Below, one piece after another: positions 53,874 to 56,577 of a stretch of 64,000 nt of DNA (its first letter is position 1; each line of letters starts with the position of its first letter). The notes under the pieces were generated by a model. The model was given only the letters and a program-made list of their open reading frames with translations, was not told the DNA's origin and searched no databases. Source of the DNA: Natrinema pellirubrum DSM 15624 (GTDB lineage: Archaea > Halobacteriota > Halobacteria > Halobacteriales > Natrialbaceae). A program made the translations under genes and the position numbers. The DNA is taken from contig NC_019962.1 in assembly GCF_000230735.2 (NCBI RefSeq), positions 744,001-808,000 on the forward strand, read 5' to 3'.

Positions 53874-55061
53874 TTACCGGATGACGTCGACGCCGTTCTG
53901 GCGGTCGACTTTCTCGCGGCCGCCGTCGCTTTGGGCACCGAAGCCGGAGCCGCCGGCTTCGACGTTGTTGCTCGCGTCGAAGTCGGCCTCGTTGATGCCC
54001 TCGATGCTCGCGCGGGACTTGTCGGCCTGTTTCTGGGTGGTGGGACCGAGTACCTGCGCGCTCTGGACGCCGGTCATGATCGCCATGACCCGGACCTTGC
54101 CCTTGTAGGACTCCTGGATGCGCGCGCCCCAGATGACGTTCGCCGAGGCCTCGAGGCGCTCGGTGATGTTGTCGGCGATTCCCTCGGCCTCTTTGAGCGT
54201 GAGGTCGGGGCCGCCGGTGATGTGGACGAGCCCGCCGCTTGCGCCGCGGTAGTCGACGTCAAGCAGCGGATGGTTCATCGCGTCCTTGACGACCTCGTCG
54301 GTCTTGTTCTTGTCCTGGGTCTCGCCGACCAGCATGACTGCGACCCCGCCCTGGTTCATGATCGTGGACATGTCGGCGTAGTCCAGATTGATCAGGGACG
54401 GTTGGGTGATCGTCTCCGAGATCCCCTTGACGGTCTCGGCGATGATCTGATCCATCACCGAGAACGCCTTCCCGATCGGCAGATTCGGGACGTAATCGAG
54501 CAGCCGGTTGTTGTCCAACACGATGATCGAGTCGGCCTGCTCGCGCAACTTCTCGAGGCCTTCCTCGGCTTTGACCGTGCGGGCACGTTCGACGTTGAAC
54601 GGCGTCGAGACCATGCCGACGACGATCGCACCCTGCTCTTTGGCGATCTCCGAGACGACGGGGGCGGCACCCGTGCCGGTGCCACCGCCCATCCCGGCGG
54701 TCACGAACACGAGGTCCGCGTCGCCGAGGACGTCCTTGATCGTCCCCTGGGCCATCTCGGTGGCGCGTTCACCCATCGAGGGGTCGCCACCGGCACCGAG
54801 CCCGTTGGTGAGGGATTTGCCGACGAGGATCTTCGTGTCGGCCTCGATCATCTTGAGGTGCTGTTTGTCCGTGTTGATCGCGATCGTGTCGGCACCGTCG
54901 ACGCCGATGTTGTACAGGCGGTTGATGGTGTTGTTGCCGGCACCGCCACAGCCGACGATGACGATCCGTGGATCGCCGAACTCGTCGTCGTCCATCGAGA
55001 CGTCCATCTCCCGGGCCTCTTCCTCCGCGTTCTCTAAGGCGTCCTGAACGATATCCTGCAT
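53874..55061 (-). CDS. ftsZ2: Cell division protein FtsZ2
   Basis: This tubulin-like GTPase is needed for archaeal division-ring constriction. It has 395 residues. Motifs are [33 protein letters not shown] (tubulin signature), [20 protein letters not shown] and [15 protein letters not shown] (synergy-loop region). The last residues NGVDVIR form the conserved C-terminal peptide. Assignment to FtsZ2 rather than FtsZ1 rests on gene order: a short RHH protein and an RHH-zinc-ribbon protein lie just upstream, as in the Halobacterium cdrSL-ftsZ2 operon (from memory). It starts two bases after the cdrS stop codon. Confidence 0.92.
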
Positions 55062-55063
55062 CG

Positions 55064-55243
55064 TTACACCTTGGCCCAGTTGCGTTTGCCGGACTGCTCG
55101 TTGGGAGCCTCCCGCTGTTCGTTGATCATCTCGCGAACGGCCGACCGGATCGCCTCGCTCCGGTTCGGGAACTCGCCCGCGTCGACCAGTTGCTCTACTT
55201 CCTCGATCTGCTGTTTCGGGATTCGCAGTGTCACACGCTCCAT
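55064..55243 (-). CDS. cdrS: Short ribbon-helix-helix regulator CdrS
   Basis: This 59-residue protein is too short for most gene callers. [20 protein letters not shown] gives the beta-strand and helix 1 of an RHH (MetJ/Arc) fold, and [17 protein letters not shown] gives helix 2. It is the position and size of CdrS, which in Halobacterium is cotranscribed with and controls ftsZ2. Its stop codon is separated from the ftsZ2 ATG by two bases. Confidence 0.88.
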
Positions 55244-55440
55244 GGTTGTATTCCCCGTTGGGGGTAAGACGGTGGCGCGCCCCTGTCAGACGCGGCGTGT
55301 CTTACGTCGAAACCACCCGAAGTCGGGCGATTTCCCGTCTTGTCGACGGGTGTAAGACAATCCGTCTTACGCGACTAAGTCGATGTTTGGCACAGATAAT
55401 AAAACTTTCCCCGAGGCTGACTTTCAGTGTCTTACACCGG
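55244..55440. promoter_or_regulatory. Operator-like cluster: five GTCTTAC/GTAAGAC boxes
   Basis: GTAAGAC or its complement occurs at 55264-55270, 55299-55305, 55352-55358, 55364-55370 and 55429-55435. The middle two form a perfect palindrome with a 5-base spacer, GTAAGAC-AATCC-GTCTTAC. The last overlaps the region just before the cdrL stop. An AT-rich stretch (AGATAATAAAACTTTCC, about 55394-55410) lies within. These sites precede cdrS-ftsZ2 and are natural targets for the two RHH proteins. Confidence 0.7.
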
Positions 55441-56025
55441 TCAGCGCTGGTGAGTGTCCGCCTCGAGAACGTCCGCCGCTGGCGTCCGACGACCACAACC
55501 CGGACAGAACGACCAGTCCGAGCGGACCTCGTCGCCGCAGTCACAGAACAGCCGTCGGGCGGCTTTCTCGCCGCAGTTCGGACAGTAGACGTGATCGCCC
55601 TCGAGCGTCTCCCCACACTGGGTACAGGCGGCGTCCGTCTCCTCGCGTGGCTCCAACTGTCTGTGTTCGGCGTCGTCCGACGCCGGGTCGCGCGATCGGT
55701 CGGCCTCGAGTCGGACATCGTCGACCGACTCGCCGTGAGCGCCCGTCAGCGAGACCGAGACGGTCACGTCCCGCGGCTCGTCGGACACACGCGAGCCCGC
55801 GGCCTCGAGCCCCAGCTCCCGCAATCGGGCGTCGAGCCGTTCGTCCACGCGTGCGCGAACCAGGTCGTCGATCGCCGTCTCCCCGTCACGTTCCGACGCC
55901 GACTCGCCGCGATCACCCTCGAGGTACGCCCGGAGCGCCTCTCGCATCGCCTCGCTCTTGGAGATCTCGAGGGCCTCGAGCTGATCGACGAGATCGTCGT
56001 CGGCGCGGAACGTGATCTTACTCAT
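55441..56025 (-). CDS. cdrL: RHH and zinc-ribbon regulator CdrL
   Basis: This has 194 residues. The N-terminal RHH domain MSKITFRADDDLVDQLEAL, then SKSEAMREALRAYLEG, is followed by an acidic linker and two zinc ribbons (CTQCGETLEGDHVYCPNCG and CDCGDEVRSDWSFCPGCG, about residues 133-180). It matches CdrL, the long partner in the haloarchaeal cdrSL-ftsZ2 operon, which acts as a DNA-binding regulator. A 197-bp gap with repeated boxes separates it from cdrS. Confidence 0.88.
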   Translation of the reverse strand: MSKITFRADDDLVDQLEALEISKSEAMREALRAYLEGDRGESASERDGETAIDDLVRARVDERLDARLRELGLEAAGSRVSDEPRDVTVSVSLTGAHGESVDDVRLEADRSRDPASDDAEHRQLEPREETDAACTQCGETLEGDHVYCPNCGEKAARRLFCDCGDEVRSDWSFCPGCGRRTPAADVLEADTHQR

Positions 56026-56149: not shown

Positions 56150-56223
56150 CCGCCCTTAGCTCAGACTGGTAGAGCAGTCGACTGTAGATCGACTTGCCCC
56201 CCGTTCAAATCGGGGAGGGCGGA
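56150..56223 (+). tRNA. tRNA-Tyr (GTA)
   Basis: The acceptor stem CCGCCCT/AGGGCGG, anticodon stem GTCGA/TCGAC with loop CTGTAGA (anticodon GTA), and T-arm CCCCG-TTCAAAT-CGGGG all pair perfectly. The discriminator base is A223. It has no intron, CCA is not encoded, and there is a short variable loop. It is preceded by an AT-rich promoter (AATAATAACCCTTATG, about 56106-56121). Confidence 0.97.
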
Positions 56224-56577
56224 CTCGGATTCTCGCCGAAGCACAGTCGAACCGGATACTGGCGTTTTCGTCACTCGTAGTGGCCTTACTGCTGATTTCG
56301 CGTTTCCAATATCGGAGGCCAAATCCGGAGTGGAACTTGGTTCCAGTGCCGGGTGGACGCCTGCGGGCGAATTTTGGAGTCGTCGGAGTGGTCAGCGTGA
56401 CGATCATGCCAAGGCACTCGATGGCAGCGACATCGACGCCCGTACAGAGCGTTCCATTTCGGTGGCGCCCCTTCCACTCGAGTTCAACGCGGCGGTCGCG
56501 TTCGGGGGAGCCCGACTGTTTGACGACCGCTTTCGGAGACGGATATCGGGTCTGCCCATCGCGAAACGTGAGGCGGG
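56224..56577. other. 354-bp interval without recognised gene
   Basis: This lies between tRNA-Tyr and the stop of the leftward secreted-protein gene. No frame in it has haloarchaeal-like composition over a meaningful length. I see no attachment-site repeat of the tRNA 3' end and no integrase nearby. Confidence 0.5.

Follow-up and report, generated by a model that had tools for sequence, protein, structure and literature searches.

A conserved box array and a predicted structured leader in front of cdrS-ftsZ2 in haloarchaea

The box array at the Natrinema pellirubrum locus

The window, the whole 64,000-nucleotide stretch of Natrinema pellirubrum DNA that was analysed, carries cdrL, cdrS and ftsZ2 in this order on the minus strand (Table 1). 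Both CdrS and CdrL, the products of the RHH genes adjoining the array, matched PF01402. The neighbourhood was as given in a preliminary description of this DNA, with the array in front of the RHH gene cdrS and behind the gene for its long partner, and with ftsZ2 after cdrS. All five 7-base copies listed there were found again at the same positions, spanning 172 bp. On the sense (minus) strand from cdrL to cdrS, the boxes A to E read GTAAGAC, GTAAGAC, GTCTTAC, GTAAGAC and GTCTTAC; scored on the forward strand, the matches at A, B and D are plus and those at C and E minus. The A-B and B-D spacings are both 65 bp. Two boxes had also been described as a perfect palindrome. This is the inverted pair B/C (55352-55370), whose two boxes are separated by a 5-bp spacer. 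The single GTCTGAC box between D and E is retained by many members of the same family and also belongs to a predicted inner hairpin of the leader. A putative tRNA-like sequence (anticodon GTA) was seen at 56150-56225, upstream of cdrL.

Table 1. Features of the cdrL-cdrS-ftsZ2 region, in window positions
Feature	Position	Strand	Remarks
cdrL, RHH_1 + CdrL_M + double zinc ribbon	55441..56025	-	
Box A, sense GTAAGAC	55429..55435	-	upstream of BRE/TATA; predicted untranscribed
Predicted TATA box (TTTATTA) and BRE-like GGGGAAAG, cdrS promoter	55397..55413	-	from sequence and TATA-to-B distance in orthologues
Predicted structured cdrS 5' leader RNA	55244..55376	-	B:E and C:D helices plus inner hairpins
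Box B, sense GTAAGAC	55364..55370	-	just 3' of predicted start site; partner of E in predicted RNA
Box C, sense GTCTTAC	55352..55358	-	inverted mate of B, 5-bp spacer; partner of D in predicted RNA
Box D, sense GTAAGAC	55299..55305	-	65 bp from B
GTCTGAC, single CdrS-type box	55285..55291	-	between D and E; from sequence
Box E, sense GTCTTAC	55264..55270	-	27 nt ahead of cdrS start codon
cdrS, 59-aa RHH protein (RHH_1)	55064..55243	-	
ftsZ2	53874..55061	-	

When the 197-bp intergenic region was dinucleotide-shuffled 20,000 times, the box count never exceeded two. When the window was divided into overlapping 197-bp stretches, about 3,190 in all, 25 of them had some 7-mer that reached five copies, so the count alone is not unique. 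Within the 4.35-Mb host genome, GTAAGAC-N1-28-GTCTTAC occurred in this region only, once formed by B and C and once by D and E. The strength of the five-copy observation thus comes from genome-wide uniqueness and class-wide conservation.

Conservation across haloarchaea

Of 292 haloarchaeal genomes, 286 had the pair GTAAGAC-N2-6-GTCTTAC, always as a single copy except for one genome with two, and a reversed control pattern gave only four matches in the same set. The preliminary description had named absence of the boxes from orthologous promoters as one result that would speak against it; they were present nearly throughout the class. A chance repeat, which the other five-copy 7-mers in the window might seem to favour, is already refuted by this conservation at the same place, leaving it a negligible probability. 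The five boxes are real.

Among 160 orthologous upstream regions read directly, 156 carried the exact pair ahead of cdrS, and in the remaining four B or C was recognisable as a one-base or near variant. The starts of B and C lay 11-12 bp apart, about one helical turn, in 152 of the 156 exact pairs. The B-C spacer is cut to 2 bp in three loci of family f9 (L048, L050 and L059), which breaks this register. The TATA box preceded B by 32-33 bp in 133 of the 160 loci, and E sat 19-32 nt ahead of the cdrS start codon. Box A preceded B by 65 or 52 bp in most cases, and its orientation flipped (GTAAGAC in 70 loci, GTCTTAC in 55). The orientation of D and E was nearly fixed, with exact E in 147 loci and exact D in 115. 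The deepest sampled lineages (L157-L162) kept B/C and were missing D or E, indicating that the B/C pair is the universal core.

CdrS was detected in all 292 genomes, confidently in 291 and marginally in one (G229). This genome, with an estimated completeness of 98%, had no confident CdrS, CdrL or pair; the locus was either lost or falls in an assembly gap. Second CdrS-like copies were observed on other contigs of two genomes (G046:C3:93067-93210, 58% identity; G034:C99:37162-37302, 47% identity).

The predicted leader RNA

With a transcription start some 30 bp past the TATA box, as its position predicts, B, C, D and E would all lie in the leader of the cdrS mRNA. The preliminary reading was at the DNA level only; that four boxes also fall in the predicted leader, as helices with covarying flanks, had gone unnoticed. 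For the window, the predicted fold of the leader joined B with E and C with D (-61.9 kcal/mol, z -4.88), and the same architecture recurred in the predictions across clades. The leaders folded far better than their shuffled versions, with a mean z of -4.46 compared with -0.79 for the sequences before ftsZ1. For relatives outside the haloarchaea, the mean z was -2.9 for the leader and 0.0 for a distant stretch.

The box helices themselves are invariant, so that any covariation signal must come from the flanks and the inter-box segments. On a plain alignment, RNAalifold chose the local pairs B:C and D:E, which are invariant and show no covariation. Because the loops in such an alignment are unreliable, explicit tests of the flanks were used. 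At the positions immediately internal to the C:D and B:E helices, bases matched their partners from the same genome better than those from other genera (z 4.9 and 3.6). The excess persisted under within-family shuffles (z 4.3 and 2.9), while neither the flanks of the alternative pairings (B:C and D:E) nor those of control combinations gave covariation. Pair counting found 53 doubly changed cells against 32 after shuffling (0 of 500 shuffles reached the observed count), and slid versions gave 15-31.

In 42 of 44 genera the nested B:E and C:D fold was no more than 0.5 kcal above the optimum. It was better than the local fold by 5.2 kcal/mol, a difference that fell to 0.3 once the inter-box segments were dinucleotide-shuffled; with the boxes fixed and these segments shuffled in this way, the native nested fold exceeded the shuffled ones in stability by a mean of 3.2 standard deviations. 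Where D was not an exact box, C still paired with the D region (mean probability 0.66). A bistable switch between B:C/D:E and B:E/C:D was considered and rejected, as the alternative flanks do not covary and the nested fold is favoured. The leader matched no Rfam 15 family up to E = 1. The fold is not universal, since D or E is missing from the deep lineages (L157-L162). A monocistronic cdrS mRNA has been reported at about 250 nt, shorter than the roughly 300 nt expected from a start at B, which counts against the leader model. Ribo-seq has shown that the mRNA and the translation of cdrS-ftsZ2 do not rise together, suggesting post-transcriptional control of the operon (PMC8303175).

CdrL and the genomes without it

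CdrL ChIP-seq in Halobacterium salinarum found this region only (PMC7439475). Together with the occurrence of the pair once per genome, this would suit a pure DNA operator for CdrL as a one-target regulator, with the RNA pairing incidental. The distribution of CdrL bears directly on this reading. A profile search detected CdrL in 281 of the 292 genomes, and an RHH-domain search agreed, with scores of 85-92 bits where CdrL was present and at most 26 in the eleven genomes without it. Apart from G229, these eleven comprise ten genomes from seven genera that have CdrS (G001, G002, G007, G026, G092, G135, G137, G182, G260 and G281); CdrL has been published as present in all sequenced Halobacteria. 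In nine of the CdrL-less genomes, the 5-6 kb upstream of cdrS were examined and contained no CdrL relative.

All ten kept the pair, so box presence does not track CdrL presence. With the core intact in ten CdrL-less genomes of seven clades, CdrL is not the only constraint on it. B, C and E were exact in all eight CdrL-less loci analysed. Exact A was found in one of these eight, compared with 124 of the 152 others, and exact D in two of the eight, compared with 115 of 152. This suggests that box A tracks CdrL, although A adjoins the deleted cdrL gene and the related genomes are not independent; A may have gone simply through this proximity. The less frequent integrity of A and D without CdrL agrees with the operator for CdrL alone, but the retained pair, confirmed by both searches, speaks against it and the flank covariation would be left unexplained, making it quite unlikely. 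Two more specific candidates were discarded on the same genomes: CdrL as the sole binder is ruled out as the full story, and a CdrS-CdrL heterodimer on an asymmetric box cannot account for them.

CdrS-type boxes and their probable ancestry

CdrS ChIP-seq in Haloferax volcanii gave 18 sites, which include ftsZ1 and dacZ and do not include the cdrS promoter (PMC8406309). Upstream of haloarchaeal ftsZ1 and dacZ we found GTCNGAC-N4-GTCNGAC-like pairs, a motif inferred here from those promoters. Those before dacZ, the diadenylate cyclase gene, were seen in several haloarchaea (L223-L244). The cdrS boxes have the same 7-N4-7 geometry and stand one base per box apart, at the fifth position; carrying GTCTTAC, the cdrS array does not match GTCNGAC-N4-GTCNGAC as a CdrS regulon site does. 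A strict scan of the host genome for this pattern returned one site, on the third contig, which was not the ftsZ1 site. The motif is therefore too strict for genome-wide calls.

As an outgroup we took 20 non-haloarchaeal relatives of the same phylum (methanogen relatives), in which CdrS is present and no CdrL was detected beside it. The 120 bp before cdrS at these 20 loci held 45 GTCNGAC boxes, compared with 0.6 expected; a more distant control stretch of the same relatives contained none. Just one GTCTTAC-type box was found before cdrS in them. The same 120-bp regions (L202-L221) showed GTCAGAC/GTCTGAC arrays and long leader hairpins, for example in L209 and L212. Arrays of this kind in CdrL-less relatives imply that CdrS autoregulation through GTCNGAC is likely the ancestral state, of which the haloarchaeal boxes would be a one-base variant. 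Judged from the sequences, CdrS is the likeliest ancestral binder, and RHH proteins in general are the likeliest binders of the boxes in DNA.

The preliminary description had proposed an autoregulatory array. The evidence strongly supports a conserved regulatory array in front of cdrS-ftsZ2. Simple CdrS autoregulation is not established, because cdrS is absent from the CdrS ChIP list, CdrL is found here by ChIP and the CdrS targets carry GTCNGAC. A version in which CdrS alone binds and represses its own promoter array draws on the near-universal confident detection of CdrS, on the 11-bp geometry shared with the ftsZ1 and dacZ sites and on the outgroup arrays. It has to contend with the missing ChIP site, with a TAC half-site that is kept almost without exception and differs from the GAC of the CdrS consensus, and with RNA evidence that it does not explain; we consider it unlikely. 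The missing ChIP site and the retention of the pair without CdrL would also fit a third conserved transcription factor, neither CdrS nor CdrL, on the B/C pair. We regard this as very unlikely, given that there is no candidate protein and the boxes belong to the family recognised for CdrS.

The relation to the CdrS box also weighs on the idea that the element acts in RNA only, the need of four leader strands to pair having frozen the box sequence. The covariation, pair-counting and folding results, and the fixed orientation of B to E, are what this predicts. However, box A has the same 7-mer upstream of the TATA box, the deep lineages, which lack D or E, still have B/C, the 7-mer differs by a single base from a CdrS DNA box, and CdrL occupies the region by ChIP. 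A purely RNA role is therefore given a low probability.

Proposed dual mechanism

Control of the level of the division tubulin in archaea is poorly understood, and the array offers a precise cis-element, amenable to mutation, before cdrS-ftsZ2 that is nearly class-wide and occurs once per genome. We propose that it is a conserved cis-regulatory leader of cdrS-ftsZ2, at once a DNA operator and a structured-leader element, a model to which we give about an even chance of being right. In DNA, the boxes would serve as an operator for the RHH regulators of the locus itself. An RHH protein bound to the B/C pair, which is situated at the predicted transcription start, would hinder initiation, and A, upstream of the promoter, and D might act as auxiliary sites. 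The main ligand would probably be CdrL where it is present, with CdrS the ancestral one. The position of the boxes suggests repression; in the published picture, CdrS activates ftsZ2 expression (PMC7439475).

In RNA, the B:E and C:D helices would fold the 5' leader compactly, ending just ahead of the cdrS start codon. The folded leader may add post-transcriptional control, probably on translation or stability, and the Ribo-seq data (PMC8303175) are consistent with such a step. A bolder form of this proposal, offered tentatively and with some doubt, is that one set of boxes works both as RHH operator in DNA and as helix strands in the leader RNA, so that transcription and translation are controlled by the same sequence, and that the haloarchaeal change from GTCNGAC to GTCTTAC split the cdrS operator from the CdrS regulon, perhaps with the arrival of CdrL.

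Comparison with known systems

Bacterial RHH operator arrays, such as those of CopG, Arc, MetJ, NikR and CopG-type antitoxins, consist of short repeated half-sites at one-turn spacing near the RHH gene. Short repeats at this spacing beside an RHH gene are also found at cdrS. However, at cdrS the predicted leader RNA also has the boxes paired with one another, and the box core is kept in one copy across a whole class, in front of a tubulin-like division gene. With structured 5' leaders and cis-regulatory RNAs, the cdrS leader shares a conserved multi-helix architecture with covarying flanks; it differs in that its helix strands double as DNA boxes and in having no Rfam match. In Haloferax, 72% of transcripts are leaderless and structured leaders are considered not typical (PMC4983044). 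The cdrS leader suggests that such leaders may act on a core cell-cycle gene in haloarchaea. In the literature covered, which did not extend to subscription papers and preprints, we found neither these boxes nor a structure of the cdrS leader described.

The CdrL site of Halobacterium salinarum (PMC7439475) lies in the same region upstream of cdrS-ftsZ2 and is likewise single in its genome, but no motif was reported for it, and the boxes described here persist in CdrL-less genomes. The CdrS regulon sites of Haloferax volcanii (PMC8406309) resemble the cdrS pair in having two 7-base boxes at N4 spacing (an 11-bp register) near promoters, with six of seven bases shared. In contrast to the symmetric GTC-N-GAC inferred here for the ftsZ1 and dacZ boxes, those of cdrS read GTC-N-TAC. 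The cdrS pair also sits at the predicted start, whereas the regulon pairs lie upstream of the BRE, and the cdrS array has extra single boxes. Overall, the element resembles an RHH operator array combined with a structured leader, and is neither a standard CdrS regulon site nor a strict CdrL operator.
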